The notes beneath the pieces were generated by a model. The model was not told the DNA's origin, ran no database searches, and saw nothing but the letters and a program-made list of their open reading frames with translations. The position numbers and the translations under genes are program-made. Below are positions 12,361 to 29,624 of a DNA stretch of 31,620 nt, piece after piece (position 1 is the first letter of the stretch; each line of letters opens with the position of its first letter). This stretch comes from a virus. The stretch is taken from the IMG/VR virus record IMGVR_UViG_3300043772_004566, positions 1 to 31,620 of that record; one strand, 5' to 3'.

Positions 12361-12905
12361 ACCAACCTCTGATTCACAACATCCCAGTTGATGATTTTCC
12401 AGATATTCTTAATGTAACGAGCTTTGTCTGGCTTGTTTTCTCCAACGGTCCAGCTGTGTTCCCAAAGATCCACCGCCAACACAATAGATTTGTTGTAGTT
12501 CTGATTGGCCAGCGTGCGAATATCACCAGCTCTGCTGAGATAACACCAACCAGATCCTTGCAGTGCCATTGCTGCTTCAATGAACTTTTCTTTAAAGTTT
12601 TCGTAGTCACCAAACTCTTTATTAATTTTGTCCAAGATCAATCCGGTGGGTTTGTTAGCACCACCAGGTGGTCGAAGCTGTGGCCAAAAAAGATTGTGCA
12701 ACATGGCTCCACCATAGTTAAAATCAGGGTCGCCCTCGCCCGCATTATAACGGTCCACGTATCCTCGACTCAGCTTGCCATAATGATATTCCACCGTGGC
12801 CTGACTCATCACGGGCTCAAGCTCATCAGTGCGATAAGGCAAAGAGACCAGACTGAGTTTGTCTGGTCTCTTCTCTGCTTCGAATAGTTTAATGTACTCT
12901 TTCAT
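12357..12905 (-). CDS. Fe/Mn superoxide dismutase with N-terminal extension
   Basis: A 182-residue Fe/Mn SOD, which turns superoxide into H2O2 and O2. All four metal ligands are visible: H41 (EYHYGK), H70 (GGAMLHNLFW), D146 and H150 (VDLWEHSW). Y49 matches the conserved active-site Tyr34 of E. coli FeSOD. The usual KHH at the substrate gateway is KLS here (residues 44-46), which may change activity. The core begins at SLPY, about 15 residues later than in E. coli. The extra head MKEYIKLFEAEKR resembles the capsid-targeting leader of T4 internal proteins (MKTYQEFIAEA), with a possible cut after LFE, so the enzyme may be packaged. A late promoter ends 6 bases before the ATG and there is no ribosome site. 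Fe or Mn use cannot be told. Confidence 0.93.
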   Translation of the reverse strand: MKEYIKLFEAEKRPDKLSLVSLPYRTDELEPVMSQATVEYHYGKLSRGYVDRYNAGEGDPDFNYGGAMLHNLFWPQLRPPGGANKPTGLILDKINKEFGDYENFKEKFIEAAMALQGSGWCYLSRAGDIRTLANQNYNKSIVLAVDLWEHSWTVGENKPDKARYIKNIWKIINWDVVNQRLV

Positions 12906-12911
12906 ATAGAG

Positions 12912-12919
12912 TATTTATG
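12912..12919 (-). promoter_or_regulatory. T4-type late promoter abutting SOD start
   Basis: CATAAATA on the minus strand, followed by CTCTAT and then the SOD ATG, a gap of 6 bases. With T4 spacing transcription would begin about one base before the start codon, giving an essentially leaderless mRNA. No Shine-Dalgarno site lies between. Confidence 0.7.
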
Positions 12920-12920
12920 T

Positions 12921-13139
12921 TCACTTGACTCTATAAACAATTCTCGCTTTGGTGAGATCATAAGGACTGATTTCCAGATCCACAGTATCTCCCAGGATAA
13001 TCCTGATTTTGGCTTTGCGCATTTTTCCGCTCATGTACGCCAATACACTGTGTTCTTCAGTAATCTGTACCCGGAAGGTTGTAGAGGGTAGAACATCCAC
13101 CACTACGCCGGTCATTCTAATACAATCGTCTTTTGACAT
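12921..13139 (-). CDS. infA: translation initiation factor IF-1
   Basis: A 72-residue protein, the same length as bacterial IF-1, and similar along its whole length. It has MSKDDCIRMTGVVVDVLPS followed by TTFRVQI (E. coli: MAKEDNIEMQGTVLETLPN, TMFRVEL), then SGKMRKAKIRIILGDTV and SPYDLTKARIVYR. These are the OB-fold strands and the SGKMRK-IRI and PYDL motifs of IF-1. IF-1 binds the 30S A site and, with IF-2 and IF-3, controls start-codon selection. A phage copy suggests that initiation is retuned during infection. A late promoter ends 7 bases before the ATG, within the stop of the upstream gene. It lies directly upstream of SOD. Identification is very safe; its effect on initiation is inferred. 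Confidence 0.95.
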   Translation of the reverse strand: MSKDDCIRMTGVVVDVLPSTTFRVQITEEHSVLAYMSGKMRKAKIRIILGDTVDLEISPYDLTKARIVYRVK

Positions 13140-13145
13140 CTGAAT

Positions 13146-13406
13146 TTATTTATCCGTTACCTCAATAAGTCTTTCCCAGCGAAATGATCGCCATTGATTA
13201 AGTTCCAGATCCCAAACCACTTGCAATTCATTATTGGGTGGTCCAGCATGACTGGTTGGGTCCTGAGAAGGAATCAGCTCGGAGCAACAAGTGCCAGTTA
13301 AACTCACTGTGCGTTTATTGCTGAGTTGAAACTTTAAAACCAGAACTGATTTTGTCAAACGCTCTCGAATCTGATTCTTTTGATCTTGTTTTGTGAAATC
13401 TATCAT
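13146..13406 (-). CDS. DUF2693-like protein, second copy
   Basis: An 86-residue paralogue of the protein at 97-342. It shares the beta strand SVLVLKFQLSNKRTV and the C-terminal signature VWDLELNQWRSFRWERL. The middle differs (two cysteines, CCSELIPSQD). Function is unknown; the family is probably a small SH3-like barrel. The start overlaps the stop of the upstream gene by 4 bases (ATGA), so it is coupled to it and not driven by its own promoter, unlike the other copy. Confidence 0.75.
   Translation of the reverse strand: MIDFTKQDQKNQIRERLTKSVLVLKFQLSNKRTVSLTGTCCSELIPSQDPTSHAGPPNNELQVVWDLELNQWRSFRWERLIEVTDK
13147..13154 (-). promoter_or_regulatory. T4-type late promoter abutting infA start
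   Basis: GATAAATA on the minus strand, overlapping the AAATAA end of the upstream gene and ending 7 bases before the infA ATG. No Shine-Dalgarno site is present in between. Confidence 0.6.
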
Positions 13407-13861
13407 GCGTTGTTTTCTAATGACAGTGTTATAGCTGATAGGTATTTTTCTCGAGTATCTTTAATCCAAGTAGAATCATACACGGATTCCACATGTTTGA
13501 TTAGTATTTCCATGAAACGTTCAGCAGTATCATGATAACTGGGAAACCACAGTGAATTGACTCCAGTTTCCTTGAGCTGACTAAAAAGCTCCAGTTGTTC
13601 AGGGGTATAATTACGAGTCAAGGGCTGCCCTGCTTCTGCTAACAGTTTAGCCAACTGTGTACTAAGATCCACAGCAGCAGCCAGCAACGCCACAGTGTCT
13701 GGTTCCACATGATATTTTCTACTCTGTCCATTTTTATTAACAGAGATCAGAGTGTGTCCCACGGGGATATTATGCGATAAATTGCCAGAAAATTCCACAT
13801 CATTTATCGATACCAGTTCAAAGGTACCATCATCCAGTTTGCGATAGAGATTATTCTTCAT
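13403..13861 (-). CDS. hypothetical protein
   Basis: A 152-residue soluble protein of unknown function. The first 50 residues look beta-rich (FELVSINDVEFSGN, GHTLISVNKNGQSRKYHVEP). The rest is helical, with the hydrophobic segment TVALLAAAVDLSTQLAKLLA and a C-terminal helix pair. No catalytic motif is visible. It overlaps the upstream gene by 11 bases and the downstream gene by 4, so the three form a coupled unit. Confidence 0.7.
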   Translation of the reverse strand: MKNNLYRKLDDGTFELVSINDVEFSGNLSHNIPVGHTLISVNKNGQSRKYHVEPDTVALLAAAVDLSTQLAKLLAEAGQPLTRNYTPEQLELFSQLKETGVNSLWFPSYHDTAERFMEILIKHVESVYDSTWIKDTREKYLSAITLSLENNA

Positions 13862-14273
13862 GGATTAATTTTGCCAACATTATTAACTGTTCATGAGATT
13901 TCTTGAGATTTTCAATTGCATTGTACCAGCCAATCACAGCATCTTTGATAGTGGGATTCTCCAGGTCCAGTTCTGATGGAAGTGCCAGAAATTTTTGATT
14001 TTCCAGGAGTTGTTTGATGCTGCCTAAACCCTTTATTTTGATGTCAGCTATTTCGATAACTCCTTGTTCACCCATGCCCCAAGGATCATTAAACCAAACA
14101 TTGTTGGTATACGGGTTACAAGAACTAGTGGTTGCGCATGTGGATGTGGTTGTGGTTGTGGATGTGGTTGTGGGAACGTGTATTCCCGTAGGGAGGGAGG
14201 TCGTGTAAGCCCAGCCTCCGCCGTTAGTATCGGTTATAAAATCTTCTAATTTAGGTATTAGATATGTGCTCAT
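13851..14273 (-). CDS. hypothetical protein with Thr-rich linker
   Basis: A 140-residue protein. The N-terminal peptide MSTYLIPKLEDFITD is followed by a threonine/serine-rich linker (residues 34-52) encoded by a hexanucleotide repeat. A helical domain then runs to the end (residues 75-140, with IKGLGSIKQLLENQ and NAIENLKKSHEQLIMLAKLI). Function is unknown; the linker suggests two separate modules. A late promoter ends 5 bases before the ATG and no ribosome site is visible. Confidence 0.7.
   Translation of the reverse strand: MSTYLIPKLEDFITDTNGGGWAYTTSLPTGIHVPTTTSTTTTTSTCATTSSCNPYTNNVWFNDPWGMGEQGVIEIADIKIKGLGSIKQLLENQKFLALPSELDLENPTIKDAVIGWYNAIENLKKSHEQLIMLAKLIHEE
14134..14174. repeat. GTGGAT/GTGGTT hexanucleotide repeat
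   Basis: Six to seven units of GTGG(A/T)T in tandem. On the coding (minus) strand they encode the Thr/Ser linker of the gene at 13851-14273. Units are 6 bases, so slippage would keep the reading frame and change only linker length. Confidence 0.8.
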
Positions 14274-14278
14274 GTTGC

Positions 14279-14286
14279 TATTTATT
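14279..14286 (-). promoter_or_regulatory. T4-type late promoter abutting a start codon
   Basis: AATAAATA on the minus strand, then GCAAC and the ATG of the 13851-14273 gene, a gap of 5 bases. It overlaps the stop codon of the upstream gene (AAATAA). No Shine-Dalgarno site is present. Confidence 0.65.
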
Positions 14287-15445
14287 TGTAGGCCTTGAGC
14301 AGCAGGAATTCTTCAGTGATGCGTCCGTTGAGTTTGCTTTCCACTGCTTTGATGTCTTCAAACCACTTCTTGCTGGCTGGTTTACCTGCTGCCATGAGCT
14401 CTTTAAGTTGAGCATCGGGCTTGCGCAGTGTCTTGCAGATGCTGCGAGTTTCGCTGTAGCCTAAAATCTTGCTGCCCTTGATGTACAAGGATCCCTGAGA
14501 ATCGTCCGCCAAGTAGATACCCAGCTTGCGCTTCTTCACGTTGTAAACCCAAAGTTCAGTGGCTTTGAGTATCTGCGTGGGGTCGATGCTCTGAATCTTG
14601 AGCTCCACATCTTTGTCCAAATACTTGAGCTTGCTCACCATTTTCTGCGGAGTTTGTCCTCTGCGAGTCTTGGGCTTGCGAGCAGCAGCCTTCATAGTAC
14701 CGTAGCTAAAAAGCTGTTCCAGAGCTTTGGTGCACCAATCCACCATGCGAGTGATCTGGCGCTTTCCGTATTGGCTGTATCCTTCAACTAGTTGAGGGTC
14801 GGCGCCTTTTTGTACTTCACGAAACTCAAGCAACTGCTTTTCCAGATCCGCAGTAAGATCTCGAACTCGAGCTTGTGGAATGTTGTACCGAATCAGGATG
14901 GGAAGCAGATTGGGTTCTGATTGACAGCCGCCAACAACAAAATCATCAAAATGACCCTGAATTTCACCACCACATTCGTATATCTTTTCCTGAAGATGAT
15001 CCTGAATTGTACGTTTCTTCACTGGAGCGACTGCGACAGATTTGGCTTGTTCAGCCATTTCAGCACGTTTTGCAATCACCATTTCGGTCAGTGCTGCCTG
15101 AATCTTGCGTAGATCCCGAATACGCAACACATACCCCATCTGAGCTGAACGACACAACCAACCCATAGTGGGTGACATATTTCCGTGCTTGCGCACAATC
15201 TGTGCCAGATCAGCACGTTTAGGGCTTTGGCTCAACCATTCAGCCACAAATTCGTTGGCACGCTTGGCGTCCTGAGTGATGTTGTACCAGCGAAATGCCG
15301 CACCCAAAGCGCAATTGCGCTGTTTGGGAGTCCAAATATATTGATCTTCAGCAGTAGGCCACGTGGGCTCCGTAGAACCCACTATGCTAGCGTCAACGCC
15401 ACGATAAACAAGACCGCGATTTTTTGCAGGCTGTGCTTTACTCAT
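14282..15445 (-). CDS. large early hypothetical protein
   Basis: A 387-residue, Lys/Arg-rich soluble protein. I do not recognise the family. The first 130 residues are helical and hold WTPKQRNCALGAAFRWYN and a Ser/Pro-Lys rich turn. A basic segment (APVKKRTIQDHL) follows near residue 145. A second basic stretch (RKPKTRRGQTPQKM) near residue 265 precedes a beta-rich part (ATELWVYNVKKRKLGIYLAD) and a helical end. The basic patches fit nucleic-acid binding, but no catalytic motif is visible. A near-perfect sigma70 promoter (15453-15481) has its -10 box 6 bases before the ATG and there is no ribosome site. It is therefore probably early and leaderless. Confidence 0.75.
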   Translation of the reverse strand: MSKAQPAKNRGLVYRGVDASIVGSTEPTWPTAEDQYIWTPKQRNCALGAAFRWYNITQDAKRANEFVAEWLSQSPKRADLAQIVRKHGNMSPTMGWLCRSAQMGYVLRIRDLRKIQAALTEMVIAKRAEMAEQAKSVAVAPVKKRTIQDHLQEKIYECGGEIQGHFDDFVVGGCQSEPNLLPILIRYNIPQARVRDLTADLEKQLLEFREVQKGADPQLVEGYSQYGKRQITRMVDWCTKALEQLFSYGTMKAAARKPKTRRGQTPQKMVSKLKYLDKDVELKIQSIDPTQILKATELWVYNVKKRKLGIYLADDSQGSLYIKGSKILGYSETRSICKTLRKPDAQLKELMAAGKPASKKWFEDIKAVESKLNGRITEEFLLLKAYK

Positions 15446-15452
15446 ATCACTA

Positions 15453-15481
15453 GTTTAGCAATCATTTTGCTGGTTGTCAAT
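15453..15481 (-). promoter_or_regulatory. sigma70-type early promoter, leaderless layout
   Basis: The minus strand reads TTGACA, 17 bases ending in TTGC, then TAAACT. The -10 box is followed by AGTGAT and directly by ATG. With usual sigma70 geometry (+1 seven bases after the -10 box) the A of the ATG is the first transcribed base. Confidence 0.82.
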
Positions 15482-15509: not shown

Positions 15510-16970
15510 TTAGCTGTATTTGAACGTCATTCGGCCTTTTTGTCCTGAGAACCAGTAGGATTTTTCAGAACTGATTTCCAGTTTACCAGTAAACTCCATG
15601 GGGAAAATCACTTCCCATTTGTCCAGAGTCAGCTTGCCTGTTGTTTTGTTGGCGTCTGGTCGAAATTTCGTATACATGTGCAGCTGAATCAGCGAAGAGC
15701 TGTTGAGCACGTCCAATGCTGCTCTGCTGAAATCCGGACCCTGATTGATTTTTTCAACCACAGCTTTGGCGACCATGGCCAGTGCATGAAACCCAATAGT
15801 GTAACCCACAGTTTGATTCTGATAAAACTCACTGTTCTGTATATCGGAAGCCAATTTCATGGGTCCCGAATCCAGTTGTGCTTTCAGCGGGTCAACAGAA
15901 CTATCAAATTTTCTACTGGCTTTGAGTTTTCTTTTCAGTTGGTCTCGCTCAAATCTGTTTTTCTCAAAGGAATCCCTGATGGCTTGCGCCTGATCTTGGG
16001 TAATCAAACCCATGGTTATGCCCAACGTCAGAGGGGATTCACGTGTTTTTTCTTTCACCAATATATCAATCAATTTTTCCAGTTTCTTCACATGAGCTTT
16101 CTTTAGTAAATCACTGTTCTGATCCCGTAAAGTTTCTATCCCATCATAGATGTTGGATACGCTGGCTGTTGCACCTTTGTTGCCTTTGCTGCTGATTCCA
16201 ATACGAACTCCGTCTGGGGTCACCAAATAACTGTCAACCAGGCCTGCATTCATAATGTTGGGAAATTCTATACTACAACTGTTCCAGGATTTACCCTTTA
16301 ACAACGCTCGTTTAGCAGCATCAGTCTGTGGTATTTTGTTCATCCACAACATAATGGGACCGATGATCTCGCCCAGATCGTCACGAATTGCTGCTGTTTT
16401 GGATGCAGGTATAGAAAATTCAAATTTGCCTGTGTTCACCAACGTTTCCAGGTCCTGATAAATCTGTTTGCCCTGATCAGCATTTTGTAAATTGGTTTTA
16501 AGTGCATTCAAAATCGCCCTGGGATTGGCAAATTTTGTCTGCGTGGGCAGCAGATTAGTGGGTTTGAATCCGCTGAGATTTTTGAGAGTTCTTCCACCCT
16601 GAAAAATAAAACCACCCAGTTCGTTATTGTCCCACTGCCCCAAAGAGTCTGGATCAATTTTGGTAATCCATTTAACAAATGCAATTTTTTTATCACTGTC
16701 AACGACATTGAAGACTGCAATAGCAAACGCTCGGTACATGTTCTTGTACTCGTTGATTTGAGTTATATCAGATACATTTTGATCTTTCAGATTATCCAGT
16801 GTCTTTTTGTACTGGTCCAGTAGCTCAGCAGTCTCAGCTTGGCCATATTTGGGAAATCTTATGATTTCTTCTAGTCTGATTTCCACACCATCTTCATTGC
16901 GCCATAGATCATCACGCTTCCTGAACAAAATACCGCGTGATGCTTCCCTTAACAGTTCTTCAATAAGCAT
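15510..16970 (-). CDS. unknown protein, nuclease-like motif, capsid-leader N-terminus
   Basis: A 486-residue protein from the ATG at 16970. A longer frame (start at 17051) would run 77 bases into the upstream gene; the 16970 start lies 5 bases after a late promoter and 4 bases after the upstream stop. The N-terminus MLIEELLREASRG resembles T4 capsid-targeting leaders, with a possible gp21-type cut after LRE. In the middle, GLVDSYLVTPDGVRIGISSK has the D...xSSK spacing seen in some PD-(D/E)XK nuclease variants; this is a weak similarity. The rest is mainly helical (QDQAQAIRDSFEKNRFERDQ). If packaged, it could act on host DNA right after injection, but the function is unproven. Confidence 0.7.
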   Translation of the reverse strand: MLIEELLREASRGILFRKRDDLWRNEDGVEIRLEEIIRFPKYGQAETAELLDQYKKTLDNLKDQNVSDITQINEYKNMYRAFAIAVFNVVDSDKKIAFVKWITKIDPDSLGQWDNNELGGFIFQGGRTLKNLSGFKPTNLLPTQTKFANPRAILNALKTNLQNADQGKQIYQDLETLVNTGKFEFSIPASKTAAIRDDLGEIIGPIMLWMNKIPQTDAAKRALLKGKSWNSCSIEFPNIMNAGLVDSYLVTPDGVRIGISSKGNKGATASVSNIYDGIETLRDQNSDLLKKAHVKKLEKLIDILVKEKTRESPLTLGITMGLITQDQAQAIRDSFEKNRFERDQLKRKLKASRKFDSSVDPLKAQLDSGPMKLASDIQNSEFYQNQTVGYTIGFHALAMVAKAVVEKINQGPDFSRAALDVLNSSSLIQLHMYTKFRPDANKTTGKLTLDKWEVIFPMEFTGKLEISSEKSYWFSGQKGRMTFKYS

Positions 16971-16974: not shown

Positions 16975-18252
16975 CTATTTATGAAAATTTCTGTACCAGC
17001 TGACCTGTCTGGCCAGTTGAACGCCTCGCTTGCGAGTTTCAGCATTGTCACTTTGTTTCATACGATTAGCACGACTCTTTAGTCGCTTGAGGTCACTGGC
17101 TGTGATTTTCTCATCTTTGCCTTTGCCAGCTTTACGCTTTAAACTGCCAGGTCTGCTGCCGGGTTTGGCACGCTGAGTGAAATCCTCGATCACATCTATA
17201 GTGAATTCCGTTACCTGTTTGTGTTCAATATCAGTTGATTTCAAGTACTGTTGTAGGTTTTTAACACCAGTTTTGAATGCCCATCTAAGTCGGTGATCCT
17301 CGTAGGGATCACCACCGCTTACGTGAGCGGCGCCAGTGTCGGGATCAATAAACAAAGGAACTACATATTCACCCATTTCTGGCAATTTTCTAGTCCAAAT
17401 AGCCACCGCCCCGGGCCAGTGTGTATCGTCACTGACTATAACCACATCCAACTCCTTGGACAACATTTGATAAATGTTAGCAGTTAAATTTTTACCACGG
17501 TAAGACGGATGGGTCCAGATTGTAGACGCCACCAGTGCTTTTTTATGATTCAGCATTTGTTCTGAAAAGCTAATACTCACTACGAACTCGTCTTCATCAT
17601 CCAAAACCACAGCACGACGCTGTTTAGAACCAGAAAGTGTGATATAAGTTACTGTAATGTCGGGGAATCCTGGAAGATCATAATTTTGAAATCGTTCATA
17701 TTTTAGCATTGATCGCAGCATTCTTTCCACACTGGGATTCATGAAGTCATCAGAATGACCACTATCAGCCATTTGTAAAATTTCATTTACTTGATCTTCA
17801 TCAATAGTTTTATTGGCGAATTTCAGCATCTGCTCCTGACTGGCTTGATTTGACAGCGTGGGTTTCAGACCTGGATGCAGTGGAGTAGGCCAATCCCCAT
17901 ACTCGACCCAACAAAATCCCTTTGATTCCCAATTTAGTTCAGGCTCAAATTCTTCATCAATCACTGCCAAAAAGATATAGTATTTGTGACCTCTCGTGGG
18001 TTCCACAAACACACTAATGGGGATCATTTCTGCTGGACCTGAGTATCCACTTTCTTCTGCCATTTCTCTCTTGGCTGCTGTTTGTGCATCCTCACCTGGG
18101 TCAATTTGTCCACCCCAACAGCCCCAGGTATTGGGATGACTAACATATTGGCTGCGATGGTTAAGACAAAACCTTCCAGTACTCTTGGCTACAATCAGGC
18201 AACCAGCAGCTTTGCGAATCTTGTTGGTATCAAACATTTCATTCAGTATCAT
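16975..18252 (-). CDS. Nudix hydrolase fused to GNAT-like domain
   Basis: A 425-residue fusion. Residues 13-140 are a Nudix hydrolase with a perfect box (G48-x5-E54-x7-R62-E63-x2-E66-E67-x-G69). Nudix enzymes cleave X-diphosphate-nucleosides; the substrate here is unknown. Residues about 200-300 look like a GNAT acetyltransferase (ASTIWTHPSYRGKNLTANIY with the P-x-YRGK-L acetyl-CoA loop). The last 60 residues are very basic (GSLKRKAGKGKDEKITASDL), as in DNA-binding tails. The N-terminus MILNEMFDTN resembles the start of T4 Alt (MELITELFDED), a packaged protein. AGAGGAA supports the start, which overlaps the upstream stop by 4 bases. A stress- or NAD-related injected enzyme is one reading. Confidence 0.85.
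   Translation of the reverse strand: MILNEMFDTNKIRKAAGCLIVAKSTGRFCLNHRSQYVSHPNTWGCWGGQIDPGEDAQTAAKREMAEESGYSGPAEMIPISVFVEPTRGHKYYIFLAVIDEEFEPELNWESKGFCWVEYGDWPTPLHPGLKPTLSNQASQEQMLKFANKTIDEDQVNEILQMADSGHSDDFMNPSVERMLRSMLKYERFQNYDLPGFPDITVTYITLSGSKQRRAVVLDDEDEFVVSISFSEQMLNHKKALVASTIWTHPSYRGKNLTANIYQMLSKELDVVIVSDDTHWPGAVAIWTRKLPEMGEYVVPLFIDPDTGAAHVSGGDPYEDHRLRWAFKTGVKNLQQYLKSTDIEHKQVTEFTIDVIEDFTQRAKPGSRPGSLKRKAGKGKDEKITASDLKRLKSRANRMKQSDNAETRKRGVQLARQVSWYRNFHK
16976..16983 (-). promoter_or_regulatory. T4-type late promoter abutting a start codon
   Basis: CATAAATA on the minus strand, then GTTGT and ATG, a gap of 5 bases. The box also encodes the last two codons and the stop (His-Lys-stop) of the upstream Nudix gene. 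Confidence 0.7.
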
Positions 18253-19904
18253 AACTGTTCCTCTAGATCACTAATTCTATTTTTGAAATCAAATGCTAGG
18301 ACCAAATGCTTGTTTGATGAGTTATACGCTGTTTTAGGGTCACCTTTGATGTATTTTTGTTTGTAATAATCAAATAATCTGGGGTTAATGCCAATTTTTT
18401 CCAATCCCGGAGTTCCGTCAGTTCTATACCATATAGATTTTCCTTCTGGTGTCTGCCCAAGGTCACTGGTTATGATAACTCCGTAGTGTTGTGCTACTTC
18501 TTTATAAATTCTAGCTCCTAGATTCAGGTTTCCATATTCAGGAGTTACGTGAACATTTTTAACTTGCCAGGATTTTCTTTTTACTTCAAATTTGACCCAA
18601 GCCACAATATCAATCTCGCCATGTACTTCATTGGTTGCTACTAATTCTTTAATCAGACCCTGGTCAATTATGTTCAGTTGGATGCCCTCGTGGCCACTTA
18701 ATGGCATAGTTTTGTGTGGGAACTTCAGCATGGATTTGAGTTTAGGCGATCTCAGAATAGAATGACGACCAACGGGATCTAACATATCAGTTTCACTCAG
18801 CTGTTTGTCGTTTGAATGAAAATATTCAGGATGTGTTTTGCCAAAGTCACGCATCAGAATTCCAGCAGCAGCATTGGCTTGGTTTTCATGTTCACTGCCA
18901 GTTTCACCGCTGTGATCTTCCAGTTCATTATTTAATCTTTGTACATAATGAACTAATTCATGAGCCAGTGTTCTCATGATGTCCATGGGATGTCTTTTAT
19001 CTAGCACTAACACAATATGATCAGTGTGTGGGTCAAAGTATCCAAAAGCAGTAGGGTGGCTGGTAGCAAAATTCTTTTGAAATTTAATTTTGGGCAATTG
19101 CTGTAACTCCAGTTTTTGTACTGCAAACTTTAGAAAATCCGTCAGTACCTGCCCACTCTGTACAGATTCCGAAACTATGTCAGAACTCTTTTTTTTAGGC
19201 TTGGATGTTTTAGTTATCATAACAGCAGTTTTTGTGAGGTTAGGTACCTTTTTAGCATCAAACCCTGGTCCCAATATACTAACCACGTACTCAATGAGTT
19301 CATTGCCGTCAAAACCCTTTTGGTAAATTCTGCCACCAGGTCTCAAAATCCAAACTGATCCGGGCTCATCTCCGGGTTCGAAATTTTTAGTTCGATCGAT
19401 ATCGTCTCGATATCCTCTAACACCAATAACAGCCATACCTCCAGTTTTGAGCAGTTTGCCAATGTGCTTTACTACTCTGTCTCGAATGTTCGGTGGCAAC
19501 ACGTTCAACACATTCAAACACACCACAGCGTCGTATTGTTCGGTAATCTCTGATGACTTTGTGAAAGTGGGCTTTGATTTGGCTCGTTTGGGTTCAGGCT
19601 CATAGGAATCAACTTGAGCAATATCTGTTAACACCGATCTCATGGCATTTGTGCCGGATCCCAGACCTGCACCATAATCCAGAACTCTGGCTCCTGGTTG
19701 GATAAGAGGCAACAATAGCGAAGCTGCTTTAGCGTAACTGGTTTTCGTGGCTTCTACTTGCGTGGTTTCTGACCCAGGTTGATGCTCAATATCCTCATCA
19801 TCTTCTTTTTTGGATTTTAACTTTTCCACATTCAGTAAAGATGGATCGTCCTTTTTGTTTGAACCTTCGCTAATGTTTACGCTTAAAAAATCCCGGAGTT
19901 TCAT
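18249..19904 (-). CDS. methyltransferase-metallopeptidase-GNAT fusion
   Basis: A 551-residue protein with three recognisable parts. Residues about 60-235 form a SAM-dependent methyltransferase: motif I VLDYGAGLGSGT, then YDAVVCLNVLNVLP and KTGGMAVIGV. Residues about 255-360 carry a zinc-metallopeptidase site, HELVHYVQ (near residue 312), with a downstream glutamate in SEHENQANAAA as likely third ligand. Residues about 425-520 look GNAT-like (NVHVTPEYGNLNLGARIY). The N-terminus MKLRDFLSVNISEG matches the capsid-leader pattern, with an I-S-E cleavage-like site followed by a disordered Lys/Asp/Glu linker. A late promoter ends 5 bases before the ATG, with no ribosome site. A methyltransferase plus peptidase plus acetyltransferase suggests modification of host proteins; the target is unknown. 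Confidence 0.82.
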   Translation of the reverse strand: MKLRDFLSVNISEGSNKKDDPSLLNVEKLKSKKEDDEDIEHQPGSETTQVEATKTSYAKAASLLLPLIQPGARVLDYGAGLGSGTNAMRSVLTDIAQVDSYEPEPKRAKSKPTFTKSSEITEQYDAVVCLNVLNVLPPNIRDRVVKHIGKLLKTGGMAVIGVRGYRDDIDRTKNFEPGDEPGSVWILRPGGRIYQKGFDGNELIEYVVSILGPGFDAKKVPNLTKTAVMITKTSKPKKKSSDIVSESVQSGQVLTDFLKFAVQKLELQQLPKIKFQKNFATSHPTAFGYFDPHTDHIVLVLDKRHPMDIMRTLAHELVHYVQRLNNELEDHSGETGSEHENQANAAAGILMRDFGKTHPEYFHSNDKQLSETDMLDPVGRHSILRSPKLKSMLKFPHKTMPLSGHEGIQLNIIDQGLIKELVATNEVHGEIDIVAWVKFEVKRKSWQVKNVHVTPEYGNLNLGARIYKEVAQHYGVIITSDLGQTPEGKSIWYRTDGTPGLEKIGINPRLFDYYKQKYIKGDPKTAYNSSNKHLVLAFDFKNRISDLEEQL

Positions 19905-19909: not shown

Positions 19910-19917
19910 TATTTATC
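19910..19917 (-). promoter_or_regulatory. T4-type late promoter abutting a start codon
   Basis: GATAAATA on the minus strand, then ATCAC and ATG, a gap of 5 bases with no Shine-Dalgarno site. It drives the methyltransferase-peptidase gene and, through overlaps, the Nudix gene. Confidence 0.7.
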
Positions 19918-22321: not shown

Positions 22322-22329
22322 TATTTATA
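22322..22329 (-). promoter_or_regulatory. T4-type late promoter, perfect TATAAATA
   Basis: A perfect consensus octamer on the minus strand, followed by CCGGC and the ATG of the FMN reductase gene, a gap of 5 bases. The first base of the ATG would be +1 with T4 spacing. Confidence 0.8.
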
Positions 22330-22341: not shown

Positions 22342-23505
22342 TCAGCGGTGCCACAACAGGAAGCTGGTAATTACATCTGGTCTGAATGCTGCACGATCGC
22401 CGTCGCCCTGAGTCACAATCACATGCCATCTGGGTTGATCACTCTGTGGTGTATCCAGCATCTGATCATAAGTGATGATGTCCTGCACAGGCACATGGTA
22501 GGTCTTGGCCAACTGTTGACGGAACGTGTTCAGGCTCTTGGCGTCCTTGAACTGAATGCGACCCTTGGCATCTTTAATAAGTGCATTGCCTTCGTGCTGG
22601 ATCAGATCCCAGAACATGCTCTGTGGCACAGTGATGGCCTGCTTGACAGTTTTACCAGCGTCTTTTGCTCGTTGAATCTGAATAACATCGCTGCGTTTGG
22701 CACCAGTGCTGAAGTTGATCAGGAAGTTACTGGGAAGATTTCCAACAGCGATATCAGCCACTTTGGTATAGGCATAAAACTGCACATCGGGGTTTGCTTT
22801 GGCCAGATCCAAAGCCATCTCCAGGTACTCTTTGCTGAAGAAGTCACCAGCGTCATGCCAACGAACCACCAGCTCTATGTCTTTCTTCTTGAGCTTTTTC
22901 TTGATTTTGTTAATTTCAGTGCTGATTAATCCAAAGTATCCAGCTGGGTCGTTCACCAAAAAGTTAAGAGCTCGGGCAGCACTCAGTGAGCTGGTAGGAA
23001 ACATCACATACCCACCACGTCGAGCATAGCAGTATTTCTGACATTCGCCAGCACTGGGGCAGGTTGTGATTTCCACAAACTCGCCAGTTTCTTCGTCCAC
23101 CACTATGCCTTTGAGTGCTGGTAAACTGATGTCATAGAGCACTTTGTCCTTGTCGCTGCTCTTGACCATCTTGGCACTGGGGGCACTCTTGACCATCTTG
23201 GTGTTGATGCCCATCAGCGTCAGCGGTCGCTTGGTGATTTTCTGTCGCAACTGATCCAGATCCCAAACGTCCTCAGCATCATCAGTCTTGGTGATGTTGC
23301 TGGCATGTATGTACGCACCCATGCGTTCTTTGGGAGTCTTGGTCTTGCTCTTGATTCTGCCAGCCATGGCTTGCATCTCGGGATCGGTAATTCTGCGCTG
23401 TCCTGGTGGGTTCAGCTTGAGAGCTTCATCCAGCTGGTCGTTGAGATCCAGTCTGTGGACTGTGAATCCACCCAATCGTTTTTCCATTAATTCTCTAGTG
23501 TTCAT
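22342..23505 (-). CDS. Gp88-like phage protein
   Basis: A 387-residue protein similar to the phage 'gene product 88' family of unknown function. The marker is the cysteine cluster TTCPSAGECQKYCYARRGGY (near residues 148-167), followed by ELVVRWHDAGDFFSKEYLEM and VQFYAYTKV. The cysteine spacing could bind a metal or iron-sulphur cluster, as proposed for such clusters, but this is untested. A further conserved stretch runs through residues 250-300 (NFLINFSTGAKRSD). The N-terminus MNTRELMEKRLGG is a weak match to the capsid-leader pattern. A late promoter ends 5 bases before the ATG; no ribosome site is visible. Confidence 0.78.
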   Translation of the reverse strand: MNTRELMEKRLGGFTVHRLDLNDQLDEALKLNPPGQRRITDPEMQAMAGRIKSKTKTPKERMGAYIHASNITKTDDAEDVWDLDQLRQKITKRPLTLMGINTKMVKSAPSAKMVKSSDKDKVLYDISLPALKGIVVDEETGEFVEITTCPSAGECQKYCYARRGGYVMFPTSSLSAARALNFLVNDPAGYFGLISTEINKIKKKLKKKDIELVVRWHDAGDFFSKEYLEMALDLAKANPDVQFYAYTKVADIAVGNLPSNFLINFSTGAKRSDVIQIQRAKDAGKTVKQAITVPQSMFWDLIQHEGNALIKDAKGRIQFKDAKSLNTFRQQLAKTYHVPVQDIITYDQMLDTPQSDQPRWHVIVTQGDGDRAAFRPDVITSFLLWHR

Positions 23506-23510: not shown

Positions 23511-23518
23511 TATTTATG
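23511..23518 (-). promoter_or_regulatory. T4-type late promoter abutting a start codon
   Basis: CATAAATA on the minus strand, then ATGAC and ATG, a gap of 5 bases. A hairpin (23517-23535) lies directly upstream. The box reads His-Lys-stop in a possible gene remnant, just as the box at 16976-16983 does in an intact gene. Confidence 0.65.
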
Positions 23519-24006: not shown

Positions 24007-24609
24007 TTACTTCTGAAATGCAACTCCAAAAGTCCAGACAGTGCGATGCAGATAACCACGTTGTAGTTCATAAGAAGTCACTACTGCAAGCCCCGGAGTA
24101 AGATTGTAACCCACACCCAGCTTTTTAATATTGTACTTGGTGTTACGATCATTAGTCAAACTTTTGCTGATTTCGTATCCAGCTCTGAGAGTCATTGCAC
24201 CCAGAGCATAACGAACACGTGGTTCAAAAATATAACCCGTATCGTTTACTCCATCAGGTCCAAACAACTGGCGAACTCCACCACGGGCACCAATCTCCAG
24301 ATCCTGTAACTTGATCAGATTGTTTTTCAACAGTGCAGCACTGGCTTGGCTGGGTGTATTCTGACGTTGTTGGAAAAACTGTACGTTTTGCCAGTACATG
24401 GGGGCATTGTAATTTCTGCTCTGCACTGACTCTAGGCGAATTTCTGCAGCCAGATTATCACCCGATAGCTTAATGGTATCAGTGATTCTGACTCCCTTGG
24501 CTAGGGATTGCACTTGGTGATCCTTCATGCTAACTGCTTCCAGCCTGATCTGATGATCCAGTGCTTGGCACTGAAACGCCAACATTGCAAAAAACAGTAT
24601 CTTTTTCAT
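24007..24609 (-). CDS. phage-encoded outer-membrane beta-barrel protein
   Basis: A 200-residue exported protein. The N-terminus MKKILFFAMLAFQCQALDHQ is a signal peptide with a likely cut after QCQA. The mature part shows alternating strands typical of small barrels (RVRYALGAMTLRAGYEIS, KLGVGYNLTPGLAVVTSYEL) and ends in the strand HRTVWTFGVAFQK. A longer frame (start 24732) overlaps ClpP; I chose 24609 because GGAG precedes it and the signal peptide begins there. Phage-encoded barrels can change host surface properties, for example blocking superinfection; this is inferred. It is the last gene of the operon that starts near 27772, 10 bases after clpP. Confidence 0.82.
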   Translation of the reverse strand: MKKILFFAMLAFQCQALDHQIRLEAVSMKDHQVQSLAKGVRITDTIKLSGDNLAAEIRLESVQSRNYNAPMYWQNVQFFQQRQNTPSQASAALLKNNLIKLQDLEIGARGGVRQLFGPDGVNDTGYIFEPRVRYALGAMTLRAGYEISKSLTNDRNTKYNIKKLGVGYNLTPGLAVVTSYELQRGYLHRTVWTFGVAFQK

Positions 24610-24619
24610 ATCAACTCCA

Positions 24620-25249
24620 TTATTTGTAGGGATAATAGGTAGCCACCCGGTCTGCAATCCCCAGTTTAATTGCATCACGAGCCTCCAAGTAAACATCACT
24701 GGGAGGAAGCAGGTACTGACGTATGTCAGCATCAGTTTTCAAACTGGTGCAGGTTTTAATATGATTTATTAAACGTCGTTCCAGCCTGGCGAGTTCAGAA
24801 GTTTGGGCCATTAGTTCATGAGCCTTGCCACCAGTATACCAACTGAATTGGTGGCTCATGATACTGGTGTTGGGCGTGACAGTGCGATGACCAGGTTCAC
24901 CAGCCATGAATGCAAACAGGGCACTGCTGGCTATGCTGCCAATACCCACGGTATGAATGGGAATACGGCTGCCTTTCATCACATCAATTAAACCAAAACA
25001 AGCACTTAAATCACCGCCATCACTCATGAACATCAGAGTAATGTGTTGTGGTTTTCGGTTTGCTGGGCTGTAATTTTTATTCAGTATAAATTTGATACAT
25101 CTGGCCACGCTGGAGGTGGTAAATTCCTCACTGAACAGATAAATCCCATTTCGATCCAGATTAGATGTGACATCTGAATCAAAATAGGATTGATCGTCTA
25201 GAAATTCTGATACTTCTGCACTGCCAGAATTTTTTTTGTTTTTTGACAT
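24620..25249 (-). CDS. clpP: ClpP-type serine protease
   Basis: A 209-residue ClpP/crotonase-fold protease. The catalytic triad is visible: Ser108 in GIGSIASSALFAF (ClpP: GQAASMGAFLL), His133 in SIMSHQFSW (ClpP: MIHQP) and Asp185 in PPSDVYLEARDAIKLGIAD. The substrate-strand motif MSDGGDLSACFGLIDVM is also present. The first 30 residues are polar and have no ClpP match. It could join the host ClpX/ClpA or act alone; no ATPase gene is nearby. The start at 25249 is chosen over 25420, which would swallow most of the upstream gene. Its place among membrane-protein genes, away from head genes, argues against a prohead protease, but does not rule it out. Confidence 0.9.
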   Translation of the reverse strand: MSKNKKNSGSAEVSEFLDDQSYFDSDVTSNLDRNGIYLFSEEFTTSSVARCIKFILNKNYSPANRKPQHITLMFMSDGGDLSACFGLIDVMKGSRIPIHTVGIGSIASSALFAFMAGEPGHRTVTPNTSIMSHQFSWYTGGKAHELMAQTSELARLERRLINHIKTCTSLKTDADIRQYLLPPSDVYLEARDAIKLGIADRVATYYPYK

Positions 25250-25867: not shown

Positions 25868-26191
25868 CTATAGATCAAACATGTTCATAACAAACCAAAT
25901 CAGTTTACAAAATATATGCAGGGCCTGATCTGTGTGAAAACCAATGTCTTCATTGCTTTTGTGGAAGTCTATTACCAAATGGGTTATGGTTTCGTAACTA
26001 GCCAATCTTAGACTGCCAGTCACCAGCAACACCAAGCTGCCATGCACCACGCTGTGGGCCAACAGACTCCAAAACCAGGGTATACCTGGTAAAGGATTTT
26101 TATGATTTTTGGATCGAGCCAAAAAATCATTTTGAAACACATAATCGCCAAAAAAATGACCTGCCAATAACCACCATAACACATTAAACAT
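25868..26191 (-). CDS. DUF3307-like integral membrane protein
   Basis: A 107-residue protein with two to three membrane helices. The first holds the family signature LLAGHFFGDYVFQNDFLARS; the second is SLLAHSVVHGSLVLLVTGSL; the HLVIDFHKS motif follows. These His/Asp residues in helices mark DUF3307 proteins (unknown function, found in bacteria and phages). The start codon lies inside the preceding small gene, an overlap of 8 bases. Confidence 0.8.
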   Translation of the reverse strand: MFNVLWWLLAGHFFGDYVFQNDFLARSKNHKNPLPGIPWFWSLLAHSVVHGSLVLLVTGSLRLASYETITHLVIDFHKSNEDIGFHTDQALHIFCKLIWFVMNMFDL

Positions 26192-26324
26192 TTTTACCCC
26201 TACGCAGGCATTGACGAATAAACATCACACCGGCACTTACAACAGGCACTATTACAGGCCATCTAGTAGGCGCAAACACACCGTGAACTGGACAAAACAA
26301 AAATTCTGTGATATCGTTTAGCAT
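26184..26324 (-). CDS. 46-residue membrane protein
   Basis: A short gene. The product MLNDITEFLFCPVHGVFAPT continues with one hydrophobic helix (WPVIVPVVSAGVMFI) and ends RQCLRRGKNV, so it fits a one-helix inner-membrane protein with a positive cytoplasmic end. It overlaps the DUF3307 gene by 8 bases, and AATAAATA ends 7 bases before the ATG. Function is unknown. Confidence 0.62.
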   Translation of the reverse strand: MLNDITEFLFCPVHGVFAPTRWPVIVPVVSAGVMFIRQCLRRGKNV

Positions 26325-26331: not shown

Positions 26332-26339
26332 TATTTATT
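26332..26339 (-). promoter_or_regulatory. T4-type late promoter inside the operon
   Basis: AATAAATA on the minus strand overlaps the AAATAA end of the lipoprotein gene and ends 7 bases before the ATG of the 46-residue membrane protein. It would let the downstream half of the operon, including clpP and the barrel gene, also be made late. Confidence 0.5.
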
Positions 26340-27071: not shown

Positions 27072-27081
27072 TTGTGTATTC

Positions 27082-27345
27082 TTAGTATCCGTATTTGAGT
27101 ACAAAAAATGTTAGCAATTCGGGGTCATCAACTATCAACGTGGCATCACGGTATTCGTCTGCTCCTTTGAAGCCAGACAACCCCCATTCAGATTTCATCC
27201 ATTTGACAAAATTTTTTCTGCTGGCAGTTATAGAATATCCTTTTTGTGCGGTTCTCTCTCCATATGGGCCAAATTCTAAAGTCCAGGCAGCAACAAATGC
27301 TCGCTTGATGTGGTTGTTGTTTGGATCGCTGAGTTTAACAGTCAT
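27082..27345 (-). CDS. small hypothetical protein, tandem paralogue A
   Basis: An 87-residue protein related to its upstream neighbour (27347-27553). Both begin with a short strand and SDP (VKLSDPNNNH / IKTSDPEFRQ), share a W-containing middle (KWMKSEWGLS / TWLHKEWGID) and end alike (DDPELLTFFVLKYGY / DNPELLTFFLIKYAA). It looks like a duplicated gene pair. Function is unknown. Confidence 0.72.
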   Translation of the reverse strand: MTVKLSDPNNNHIKRAFVAAWTLEFGPYGERTAQKGYSITASRKNFVKWMKSEWGLSGFKGADEYRDATLIVDDPELLTFFVLKYGY

Positions 27346-27346
27346 G

Positions 27347-27553
27347 CTATGCTGCGTATTTGATTAGGAAGAATGTCAATAGCTCTGGGTTGTCAATTTT
27401 GATGTTATTTGTATCACTAATGTCAATACCCCATTCTTTATGCAACCAGGTGCTAAAAGAACCGGCACAGCCAGTACGCCACCAGTCAGTGACTGGACGA
27501 CGACATGCTGCATCTATCTGACGAAATTCTGGGTCACTAGTTTTAATAATCAT
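27347..27553 (-). CDS. small hypothetical protein, tandem paralogue B
   Basis: A 68-residue protein, shorter copy of the gene at 27082-27345; it lacks part of the middle. The shared C-terminal motif is NPELLTFFLIKYAA. The pair is separated by 1 base. No domain is recognised. Confidence 0.72.
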   Translation of the reverse strand: MIIKTSDPEFRQIDAACRRPVTDWWRTGCAGSFSTWLHKEWGIDISDTNNIKIDNPELLTFFLIKYAA

Positions 27554-27556
27554 ATT

Positions 27557-27772
27557 TTACGCCAGATTACCGTGGAAGTAGTACTTGCGGCGACTGGGGT
27601 CAGCAGGCGAGCCCAAATACTGAAACCCAGCATAGTTGCCGGTTTCGTGAAGCACGTTTTCCAGCACGCTGATCATAGCAAATCGTTCAGCGTCAGTGCA
27701 AGTGCTATGCTCCAAACGATAGTTGATGTTGATCACCAACTCCCTTACGCTGAATGTTTTTCTGTTTGCCAT
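27557..27772 (-). CDS. conserved small phage protein
   Basis: A 71-residue protein. The central pattern ERFAMISVLENVLHETGNYA is one I recognise from small early proteins of many phages, whose function is unknown. The ATG at 27772 is preferred over 27808 because a sigma70 -10 box lies just 6 bases before it. It is the first gene of the early operon running to 24007. Confidence 0.75.
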   Translation of the reverse strand: MANRKTFSVRELVININYRLEHSTCTDAERFAMISVLENVLHETGNYAGFQYLGSPADPSRRKYYFHGNLA

Positions 27773-27778
27773 ACTCTT

Positions 27779-27808
27779 ATGATAGCAAGACAACGTGAGC
27801 GATGTCAA
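27779..27808 (-). promoter_or_regulatory. sigma70-type early promoter, leaderless layout
   Basis: The minus strand reads TTGACA, 18 bases ending in TTGC, TATCAT, then AAGAGT and the ATG of the 27557-27772 gene. The gap of 6 bases places +1 at the ATG. It is the only strong promoter for the early operon. Confidence 0.8.
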
Positions 27809-27815
27809 TTCTTAG

Positions 27816-27823
27816 TATAAATA
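27816..27823 (+). promoter_or_regulatory. T4-type late promoter, perfect TATAAATA
   Basis: A perfect octamer on the plus strand, followed by ATTAC and the ATG of the Alt-like gene, a gap of 5 bases. It diverges from the early promoter at 27779-27808. Confidence 0.8.
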
Positions 27824-27828
27824 ATTAC

Positions 27829-28956
27829 ATGAGATTCAGGGAAATCAAACACTTCGTGATTGAGTCAACAGAAGATGCTGTGGATTTTTTGAGAAAATAT
27901 GTTAACGATCCCATGAACAGATGGATCAGTGCAGACCGATTTGACAACATTCTCAGCTATTTTCCCTATCAGGGTGGTAAGCTGTATCGCGGTATGAATT
28001 TTCTTGACCGGGAATCTTATGAAAAGTTTCTAGACGATATCAAAGATGGAGTGGTCAAAACACAATCAATCACCAGCTGGACCAGAGACTTGGACACTGC
28101 TTCACAGTTTGCAATCACCAGACCAACTTATTACTTTAACTCAGTGTTAGCATCTGCTGAATCGGCTCGACAAAAAAGTGGCGAACATATGGTTGGTTAC
28201 CGAGGAGTGATTCTGACCACAGTTGTTCCTGCAGAAGTTGGAGTGGATGTTAATCAATCTGGTGTGGGTGCTGAGGATGAAGTTATCTTACCGGCTGGAA
28301 ACTACAAAATTCAGATATTCAAAGAGTTTAAACCATTTGCCCAACAGGTCGCTGGACGAGATCCCAACGAACTCATTCAGTCTATTTCTCAAGAACAGTT
28401 TCGCTCTCAAGAGGAATATAAAAAATTGTTTTATTTCCTGCTCACAAACAACAAACCTGAAAGTTTCTCATCTGCCAGCAAACAACATATTTTTCGTTTA
28501 CTATACAGGAAACCCTACACTCCAGGTAACATTGCGTACGACGACCGTGTGAGTTACTTTGGATCTTTTGAAGTAACGCCCAGGTATAACTTCGCACCTT
28601 TTGGTCTCACAGAATACTTTTTGGACCAGGACCTAAAAAAACTGAGAAAAGACGCTGACCTCATGCTAAATGACGTGATGAAGACACTTAAACCCAAACT
28701 GGCTGAATTTGGAATCTCAGTGGTAGATGTTAAACTCACTATTCACCATATTGAATGGGTATTGAAGATGGCATCGCCGGGGGCAATTAGTAAGTACACA
28801 AAATTTATCAAATCAATTGTGGCACCAGAAAAGCAAAAGTTAGAACTCTCAGTCAGAGACATAAACAAAATCACTGACTCAAAACAAAAATCCAAAGCCA
28901 TCGACGAATACAAAGAAAAGATCACCAGATTGATTCGTTTTGCTTCACAGGTTTAG
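27829..28956 (+). CDS. alt: Alt-like ADP-ribosyltransferase
   Basis: A 375-residue protein from the ATG at 27829; the frame opens earlier (27802) but the late promoter ends 5 bases before 27829. It carries the R-S-E triad of arginine-specific ADP-ribosyltransferases: Arg in GKLYRGMNF, Ser in TQSITSWTRD and the E-x-E pair in GAEDEVILPAGNY. T4 Alt is such an enzyme; it is packaged in the head, injected, and modifies host RNA polymerase. The N-terminus MRFREIKHFVIESTED fits the capsid-leader pattern (cut after VIE). The C-terminal half (residues 190-375) is a separate helical region. It is one of two plus-strand genes in the window. Confidence 0.85.
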   Translation: MRFREIKHFVIESTEDAVDFLRKYVNDPMNRWISADRFDNILSYFPYQGGKLYRGMNFLDRESYEKFLDDIKDGVVKTQSITSWTRDLDTASQFAITRPTYYFNSVLASAESARQKSGEHMVGYRGVILTTVVPAEVGVDVNQSGVGAEDEVILPAGNYKIQIFKEFKPFAQQVAGRDPNELIQSISQEQFRSQEEYKKLFYFLLTNNKPESFSSASKQHIFRLLYRKPYTPGNIAYDDRVSYFGSFEVTPRYNFAPFGLTEYFLDQDLKKLRKDADLMLNDVMKTLKPKLAEFGISVVDVKLTIHHIEWVLKMASPGAISKYTKFIKSIVAPEKQKLELSVRDINKITDSKQKSKAIDEYKEKITRLIRFASQV

Positions 28957-29097
28957 TATTGCTGCTACATTTGATCATAAAAACGCATATAGAACAGGAT
29001 CTCCTATCCAAACAGTTACGATCTTACTGTCATGATTGTCTATTACAATGCTGTTCAGTGTTGTCATGCAGTTTGACTATCAAAGTGCCCACTGAAA

Positions 29098-29610
29098 TTA
29101 AAAATACCGATATCTTTCTGTTAGGTTTGATTTGTTTTCCACCAAACGATCGAACTGACCACTCTCGCCATCGATGTAAAAACCACTGGGATCCAGGATC
29201 CGACCACGTAGCTCTACCCAGCTGTGTGGTACCCACCGAAACTCTTCTTCCAGATTGTTTTGGTAGATATATGTTTTGCGATCTTTTCGCTTCTTGGGGT
29301 TTAGACCAGTTGATCTCATCTGTCTGATATCATGACTGGTTAAAGCATCCGGTGTTAGAACCGGGTGATCCAGATGAAACCAACCTTGTGCTTTGATTTG
29401 CTTTCCGTTTGTGGTAATTATGTAACCAATTGGTATTATTTCTGCAAAACCCGACAGCCCTTTTGTGTCCAAGAACTCTAAAAAATTCTGACTGGCCGAA
29501 ATGCATCCGTCAGTCGTAAAATACTGGTCAAGTTTATCCTGACTTTGTTGTCTCCAAAATTCAATTAACAAAGGATCAAATTTTTTGACCATTACCTCTG
29601 AGATAAACAT
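29098..29610 (-). CDS. hypothetical protein with Cys-His-Asp pattern
   Basis: A 170-residue protein. Candidate triad residues are Cys in DGCISASQNFLEFLD, His in VPHSWVELRGR and Asp in ILDPSGFYID. This order and spacing recall transglutaminase-like or papain-like cysteine enzymes, where Cys sits at the start of a helix and HxW-E and DP follow in strands. The match is by pattern only. The start at 29610 has a late-type box (ACTAAATA) 6 bases before it; an inner ATG at 29592 is less likely. It is convergent with the Alt-like gene. Confidence 0.65.
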   Translation of the reverse strand: MFISEVMVKKFDPLLIEFWRQQSQDKLDQYFTTDGCISASQNFLEFLDTKGLSGFAEIIPIGYIITTNGKQIKAQGWFHLDHPVLTPDALTSHDIRQMRSTGLNPKKRKDRKTYIYQNNLEEEFRWVPHSWVELRGRILDPSGFYIDGESGQFDRLVENKSNLTERYRYF

Positions 29611-29616
29611 ATAATC

Positions 29617-29624
29617 TATTTAGT
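29617..29624 (-). promoter_or_regulatory. late-promoter-like box
   Basis: ACTAAATA on the minus strand, two mismatches from consensus, ends 6 bases before the ATG of the 29098-29610 gene. Confidence 0.4.

Follow-up and report, generated by a model that had tools for sequence, protein, structure and literature searches.

Late and sigma70 promoters abutting start codons suggest leaderless or nearly leaderless mRNAs in a group of uncultured T4-type jumbo phages

Results

Promoter-like boxes next to start codons in a viral contig

The 31,620 bases of IMG/VR virus record IMGVR_UViG_3300043772_004566 (hereafter the window, i.e. the whole stretch analysed) contain a set of phage genes whose ATG start codons are directly preceded by promoter-like sequences. 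The genes encode an Fe/Mn superoxide dismutase (SOD), a GP88-family protein, an FMN reductase, a methyltransferase-domain protein, a MazG-like protein, a homolog of initiation factor IF-1 and several unknown proteins (Table 1). A first reading of the DNA (the original prediction) had taken this arrangement of late and sigma70 promoters as a sign that leaderless mRNAs are a regular part of the gene expression of the phage, and the present analysis follows up that claim in the window and in related genomes.

The number of bases between a box and the ATG is referred to as the gap. All ten late boxes of the original prediction are present at the gaps claimed (5 in six cases, 6 in two and 7 in two), and an eleventh was added upstream of the MazG-like gene. 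They had been described as TATAAATA-like; the core TAAATA is common to all of them, but the full TATAAATA is found at only two sites. Both predicted sigma70 promoters are likewise present six bases before an ATG, although the coordinates first given for the one upstream of 15445 were off by one. Among 32 hand-chosen gene starts in the window, 11 have TAAATA at a gap of 4-7 (all of them at 5-7); when the starts were shifted circularly 20,000 times, the mean was 0.076 and no shift gave more than 3. The claimed lack of a Shine-Dalgarno (SD) site holds for all 13 near starts, since none has an SD-like tetramer (AAGG, AGGA, GGAG or GAGG) at -20 to -5, and the base at -1 is a pyrimidine in 12 of them. 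That other genes have ordinary leaders is borne out by the genes starting at 11877, 8629, 4005 and 1079, where TAAATA lies 19-44 bases upstream and is combined with an SD-like site. Contigs of the same phage (48.7, 25.1 and 23.1 kb, with the query protein P0002 100% identical) repeat the sites of the window and add a few.

Table 1. Promoter sites and selected genes of the window, with gaps in bases.
Feature	Position	Strand	Relation to gene
TAAATA late box	2918..2923	-	Gap 5 to ATG 2912; MazG-like gene 2511-2912; absent from the original prediction
TAAATA late box	12912..12917	-	Gap 6 to ATG 12905 (SOD gene)
TAAATA late box	13147..13152	-	Gap 7 to ATG 13139 (IF-1 gene)
TAAATA late box	14279..14284	-	Gap 5 to ATG 14273; unknown gene 13851-14273
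sigma70 promoter, TTGACA-17-TAAACT	15452..15480	-	6 bases to ATG 15445; gene 14282-15445, phrog_11903
TAAATA late box	16976..16981	-	Gap 5 to ATG 16970; unknown gene 15510-16970
TAAATA late box	19910..19915	-	Gap 5 to ATG 19904; methyltransferase-domain protein 18249-19904
TATAAATA late box	22322..22329	-	Gap 5 to ATG 22316; NADPH-dependent FMN reductase 21549-22316
TAAATA late box	23511..23516	-	Gap 5 to ATG 23505; GP88-family protein 22342-23505
TAAATA late box	26332..26337	-	Gap 7 to ATG 26324; 46-residue open reading frame 26184-26324
sigma70 promoter, TTGACA-18-TATCAT	27779..27808	-	6 bases to ATG 27772; 71-residue open reading frame 27557-27772
TATAAATA late box	27816..27823	+	Gap 5 to ATG 27829; gene 27829-28956
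TAAATA late box	29617..29622	-	Gap 6 to ATG 29610; unknown gene 29098-29610
TAAATA, contrast	11897..11902	-	19 bases before SD-like-leadered tail fibre gene 8707-11877
TAAATA, contrast	8669..8674	-	39 bases before SD-like-leadered gene 3998-8629
TAAATA, contrast	4050..4055	-	44 bases before SD-like-leadered gene 2956-4005
TAAATA, contrast	1099..1104	-	19 bases before SD-like-leadered gene 792-1079
Fe/Mn SOD with N-terminal extension	12357..12905	-	Predicted leaderless-type start; Pfam PF02777/PF00081 and orthologs
IF-1 homolog	12921..13139	-	Own box at gap 7; PF01176, E 4.2e-22; PDB IF-1 chains, best E 1.3e-21

The late-box gap is bimodal in related genomes

Scans of viral contigs yielded 459 relatives of the GP88-family protein and 195 of the SOD, and the best 80 of each were used. 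Six relatives were analysed at the genome level (G004, G005, G008, G012, G009 and 160 of the 231 kb of G010), with T4, S-PM2, PA5oct, Atu_ph07 (400 of 490 kb) and Phosso (400 of 469 kb) as named comparison phages at the gene level. For one relative, the best portal protein matches come from Atu_ph07, Phosso and PA5oct, with about 50% identity, which places this uncultured group among T4-type jumbo phages; the phage collection that was searched yielded no close cultured member. The T4-type prohead protease (PF03420) was found in 10 of 16 large relatives, and a phmmer search with T4 gp55, the late sigma factor, matched a protein in all six genomes (Table 2). The same search listed no match in S-PM2 or Atu_ph07, and it is therefore not a sensitive one. 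As to the host, scans of genome contigs gave no relative of protein P0009, and those with P0008 gave seven distant SODs from mixed phyla.

Genes were called by script, the first in-frame ATG downstream of each TAAATA was taken, and the 14 remaining anagrams of the hexamer served as controls. The original prediction had proposed a table of distances over whole genomes; run on the relatives, it shows a peak at gaps of 4-7 that a trough divides from a leadered class at 16-31 (Table 2), and the broad distribution that would have spoken against leaderless starts is not seen in this phage group. The near class (gap 4-7) totals 125 genes in the six genomes, against a sum of control means of about 20. 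In G004, G005, G008 and G012 the highest control was AAATAT or ATAAAT, each of which overlaps the box by five letters. The 105 near genes of these four genomes divide into 43 at gap 4, 35 at gap 5, 12 at gap 6 and 15 at gap 7.

Table 2. Numbers of genes by gap in group genomes and named phages, with E-values of gp55 homologs.
Genome	Late box, gap 4-7	Control mean, 4-7	Control maximum, 4-7	Late box, gap 8-11	Late box, gap 8-15	Late box, gap 16-31	sigma70, gap 6	gp55 phmmer E
G004	27	5.3	15	2	3	35	4	2e-7
G005	20	3.6	8	2	5	55	5	1e-7
G008	26	4.1	11	1	2	28	7	3.3e-8
G012	32	1.9	6	1	1	12	0	2e-5
G009	13	4.3	8		2		6	1.7e-26
G010	7	1.2	5		2		4	4.7e-9
T4	0						0	
S-PM2	0						0	
PA5oct	3						0	
Atu_ph07	4						0	
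Phosso	1						2	

The five named phages exhibit the leadered peak only, and their near genes amount to 8 in total with a control of about 10. A plain search for TAAATA-N4-7-ATG gave 461 matches and 203 for the reversed control in 16 group records, as compared to 174 and 282 in ten named phages. In a pool of 77 GP88 loci (1.28 Mb, from the best 80 of 459, leaving out L024-L026, which belong to the same phage as the window; open reading frames of at least 150 codons) the gaps fell as 56 at 4-7, 11 at 8-11, 7 at 12-15 and 68 at 16-31; controls at 4-7 ranged from 4 to 29, and the top two (29 and 26) were hexamers overlapping the box. As it was not seen in the five named phages, the near class appears to be a feature of this one group rather than of T4-type phages in general.

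A second promoter class keeps its own gap

A similar layout was observed for promoters of the sigma70 type. The search pattern was TTGACA and TATAAT separated by 16 to 18 bases, the gap was counted from the -10 box to the ATG, and 12 scrambled consensus pairs were used as controls. Exactly six bases separate box and ATG in 16 genes of G004, G005, G008 and G012, and in 26 when G009 and G010 are included, and the scrambled pairs gave 0-2 over the four genomes. Other gaps in these four comprise one case at 9-16, eight at 0-2, 5, 7 and 8, and the rest spread over 17-58.

The published position of the T4 late box is -13 to -6 (available text of PMC1524935), so that a gap of 5 would set +1 on the A of the ATG, as the original prediction had reasoned. 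Each promoter class thus keeps its own gap, and each gap would place transcription initiation at the ATG or directly beside it, which is the strongest argument against the box being a translation signal or its position an accident.

Sequence signs around the start

To compare the classes, gaps of 0-3 and 8-11 and genes starting at most 40 bases from the end of a joined record were left out, and the four genomes G004, G005, G008 and G012 were used. Beside the 105 near genes with ATG, an in-frame start at gap 4-7 is GTG in 4 cases, TTG in 2 and CTG in 4. An SD-like site precedes 2 of the 105 near genes, 107 of 162 leadered genes and 524 of 1210 genes with no box. A pyrimidine occupies -1 in 78 of 105 near genes, in 96 of 162 leadered genes and in 456 of 936 ATG starts without a box (Fisher p = 0.013 and 5e-7 for near against the other two classes, in related genomes that are not independent of one another). 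Sorted by gap, the pyrimidine is found in 30 of 35 genes at gap 5, 11 of 12 at gap 6 and 12 of 15 at gap 7.

In leadered promoters of named phages, the pyrimidine-purine (YR) step peaks at base 6 downstream of the box, with a frequency of 0.54 in T4 (n = 24), 0.53 in S-PM2 (n = 19), 0.53 in PA5oct (n = 45) and 0.47 in Atu_ph07 (n = 49), and the T4 peak matches the published T4 start position. The invariance of TAAATA at the sites is by construction, as this was the search pattern; near boxes show no conservation of the two bases that precede it.

The layout is partly conserved between orthologs

Among the best 80 of the 195 SOD loci, 73 have TAAATA or TAAGTA (the latter in 5 of the 73) at gap 4-7 of an in-frame ATG, and 40 of 43 do so after removal of proteins at least 90% alike. 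An upstream in-frame ATG was accepted when it agreed with this rule, the SOD of the window itself is one of the 43, and locus L138, which is cut 8 bases before its ATG so that the box region is not visible, was scored as a miss.

The 891 reciprocal-best pairs among the four genomes include 36 that are near in both, with 6.4 expected from the margins. When only one member is near, the other is leadered in 33 pairs and lacks a box in 45; the portal gene, for instance, belongs to the near class in G004 and G012 and to the leadered class in G005 and G008. The choice between near and leadered therefore appears partly conserved and partly free to switch. In orthologs that share the near layout, the bases between box and ATG mostly differ.

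The group carries IF-1, and IF-3 was not detected

IF-1 binds in the A site of the 30S subunit and stimulates initiation. The homolog in the window covers positions 2-64 of the 64 in the PF01176 model, and its residues 1-71 align to solved IF-1. Fifteen of 16 large group records and the 48.7 kb copy of this phage have an IF-1 gene; among nine named T4-type phages, Phosso is the only one with it. The sample leans toward IF-1, because 7 of the 16 records were found through the SOD, whose gene often adjoins that of IF-1; among the nine found through GP88, eight have it. IF-3 was found in 0 of 17 group records, several of them fragments, and in 5 of the 9 named phages.

Ribosomal protein bS21 is encoded in 8 of the 16 large relatives (G004, G005, G006, G007, G013, G015, G016 and G019). 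It was considered as a cause of the layout and rejected, since 3 of 5 named phages also have S21 and the two do not track each other. Matches of the box-ATG pattern shortly before the bS21 gene in three records turned out to be out of frame by their coordinates.

N-termini of near-class proteins and other genes

The phage SODs have an N-terminal extension with (L/I/V/M)xE in the first 25 residues in 42 of 43 non-redundant proteins (from the best 80 of 195; loci L104-L183), a motif that we take to resemble the site of the T4 prohead protease. The SOD of PA5oct is marked ESI-MS/MS (electrospray ionization tandem mass spectrometry) in its record. These SODs may be packaged in the virion. A general capsid-targeting cassette, in which the box would travel with a T4-like head-targeting N-terminus, was tried and abandoned because it does not hold across genomes: (L/I/V)xE in residues 6-25 occurs in near and leadered genes, respectively, in 5 of 7 and 1 of 8 (48.7 kb copy), 5 of 27 and 17 of 46 (G004), and 8 of 20 and 14 of 66 (G005).

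Several near-class proteins of G012 (L282-L295) have in common a start region of the form GH...A and a stretch resembling GIYFYPA, and others, marked by a YHGT/YHGR motif, resemble ADP-ribosyltransferases by eye. A similar resemblance of the gene product at 27829 in the window was unsupported by Pfam and PDB sequence searches, and the assignment was dropped.

Elsewhere in the window, all on the minus strand, the gene at 11914-12360 matches the Anti-CBASS protein Acb1 family (PF23474, E 4.1e-22), its PHROGs annotation being RNA ligase, and that at 24007-24732 has a weak match, below cut-off, to a Gram-negative porin (PF13609, E 0.00036). The protein of 19929-21545 is related to an Atu_ph07 protein (25% identity); its N-terminus, MKLRDLIEQN, resembles that of its neighbour at 19904 (MKLRDFLSVN), and its gene has no late box at gap 4-7.

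Discussion

Two layouts of promoter and gene

The findings are best explained by two layouts existing side by side in these phages. In the usual one the promoter would lie mostly 16-31 bases upstream and the mRNA would usually carry an SD leader. In the second the promoter abuts the gene, +1 would coincide with the A of the ATG or lie no more than about three bases away, and such mRNA would be leaderless or nearly so. This second layout would be employed by gp55-type late promoters, with a gap of 4-7 and usually 4 or 5, and by host-type sigma70 promoters, with a gap of usually exactly 6. We assign a probability of roughly 0.85 to leaderless or nearly leaderless mRNAs being made from both promoter types. 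Leaderless mRNA as a regular part of gene expression, as first proposed, is in this way supported in silico both for the phage and for its group. Read-through mRNA has no ribosome site before such an ATG, and the genes would hence probably yield little protein from read-through transcripts and depend on their own promoter for efficient translation.

Several observations weigh against this explanation or limit its reach. That near genes lack SD sites is in part a trivial outcome, since the SD position is taken up by the box. By the controls, about 20 of the 125 near cases may be due to chance, and no sigma70 near case was found in G012. With gaps of 6-7, 27 of the 105 near genes would keep 1-3 leader bases; the subclass at gap 7 has a conserved Y-A-C-T before the ATG, the fifth base after the box being A in 13 of 15, which suggests a start three bases upstream and possibly a fixed 3-base leader. 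At gap 4 the pyrimidine at -1 (25 of 43) is about as frequent as in leadered genes. Moreover, leadered promoters of the group do not point to a single clean +1, as the YR frequency is 0.39 at base 5, 0.31 at base 6 and 0.37 at base 8 (n = 135). The core is preceded by A in 35 of 105 near boxes and in 63 of 137 leadered boxes; near boxes therefore fit the full TATAAATA less well and are not better promoters by sequence. Near starts show neither an excess of A nor a clear lack of structure as compared to leadered genes. Finally, the end of the IF-1 gene often lies upstream of the SOD gene, and the conservation of the SOD box is for that reason not fully independent between loci.

Alternative explanations

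The AT-rich hexamer might instead be a translation signal, an unstructured A/U-rich stretch that enables SD-free starts on longer transcripts. It does occupy the place of the SD site, and longer transcripts are likely, since 63 of the 105 near genes are preceded by another gene in the same orientation. Other hexamers with this base composition are nevertheless clearly rarer at this position, and the best of them overlaps the box; the same core is found 16-31 bases upstream of many SD genes; the relatives encode gp55; and sigma70 promoters, complete with a -35 box, repeat the layout at a different gap. We regard a translation signal as improbable.

Even less probable is that the boxes are genuine late promoters and the true start codons lie elsewhere, either downstream with a leader or upstream so that the box is intragenic. 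The start codons are indeed predictions. In the window, an SD-like site precedes a possible alternative start 75 bases downstream of 2912 and another 36 bases downstream of 27772, and in-frame starts exist upstream of 16970 (ATG and GTG), 27829 and 27772, none with an SD-like site; that at ATG 27802 would make the box of 27829 intragenic. In the four genomes, however, only 4 of 105 near genes offer a start with an SD-like site up to 30 codons downstream (leadered 14 of 162, no box 160 of 1210), and the upstream in-frame ATGs of 10 near genes all lack an SD-like site. In addition, most SOD orthologs align from residue 1 and are conserved directly after the predicted ATG.

An equally slight chance is left to a functionless inherited accident, in which one promoter-plus-start cassette was copied to several genes: several near-class proteins begin alike (MKLRD.., MRLHE..) and a tighter N-terminal pattern marks near genes, compared with genes without a box, in G012 (10 of 32 and 9 of 271) and G005 (3 of 20 and 8 of 290), but this pattern is much weaker in G004 (2 of 27 and 11 of 328) and G008 (2 of 26 and 14 of 321), the near portal, SOD and IF-1 genes differ in their N-termini, orthologs retain the layout in spite of changed bases between box and ATG, and the sigma70 promoters share it.

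A possible role for phage IF-1

With leaderless or nearly leaderless mRNAs as the preferred reading, the phage-encoded IF-1 may help their translation, a suggestion drawn from the correlation between the two. A review states that leaderless translation is stimulated in vitro by IF1 and IF2 and inhibited by IF3 at higher concentration, and that findings on IF2 and IF3 vary between reports (PMC9031893, in its available text). We consider a causal link between the IF-1/IF-3 pattern and the leaderless layout a tentative idea, with the odds against it. The same holds for the wider proposal that the group switches translation by combining leaderless late and sigma70 mRNAs with an IF-1 of its own and no IF-3, a factor that several leader-using relatives encode, so that ribosomes would be tilted toward 5'-terminal AUGs and SD-free phage messages favoured over those of the host; this is conceivable and rather doubtful. 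Shared descent could explain the whole pattern. G009 furthermore has the layout with no IF-1 in the stretch examined, and Phosso has both IF-1 and IF-3 without a late near class.

Relation to known systems

The late promoters resemble those of T4, which depend on gp55, gp33 and gp45, in their TAAATA core, in the gp55 homologs and the PF03420 protease found in relatives, and in the SD-leadered class that the group also possesses. They differ from those of T4 and S-PM2 in the large near class. The near genes are also similar to leaderless genes of bacteria and archaea (e.g. in mycobacteria and Deinococcus), with a -10 box about 10 bases before the start, no SD site and an AUG, and differ from them in belonging to a phage group and in using two promoter classes, one of them phage-specific, beside an SD-leadered class. 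The in silico criterion used here resembles that of PMC3160421, as far as the accessible part of that paper describes it.

The cI transcript of lambda is a leaderless phage transcript, and to our knowledge the leaderless cases known in phages concern single genes or phages with other polymerases. The present group is unlike these in having T4-type gp55 promoters and sigma70 promoters, each class set at a gap of its own. Phage transcripts are said to be "often leaderless" in the accessible text of PMC5312081, itself citing another source, which also gives the phiKZ late promoters as TATG with the G as the start. Leaderless phage transcripts are thus already known, and what is added appears to be the group-wide layout with two promoter classes. 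This layout was not found for T4-type phages in the literature searched, which left out most subscription journals and was in part available only as excerpts.

Huge phages have been reported to encode IF1, IF3, S21 and S1, with a possible phage S1 linked to rare SD sites (PMC7162821), and phages encoding bS21 have been described (PMC9723584). As in those phages, as portrayed in the text available, the present group has genes aimed at translation initiation, namely IF-1 and, in half of the large relatives, bS21; unlike in them, IF-1 without detected IF-3 accompanies a predicted leaderless promoter layout. Neither of these two papers uses the word "leaderless" in its main text.

If the proposed layout is correct, about ten to thirty genes per genome are set for leaderless mRNA, which would make leaderless translation a genome-scale viral strategy. 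Gene finders and promoter tools may misplace such genes, whose starts lack an SD site and whose promoters touch the gene. The group would also offer a test of why phages carry IF-1, namely of whether it biases initiation toward leaderless messages.

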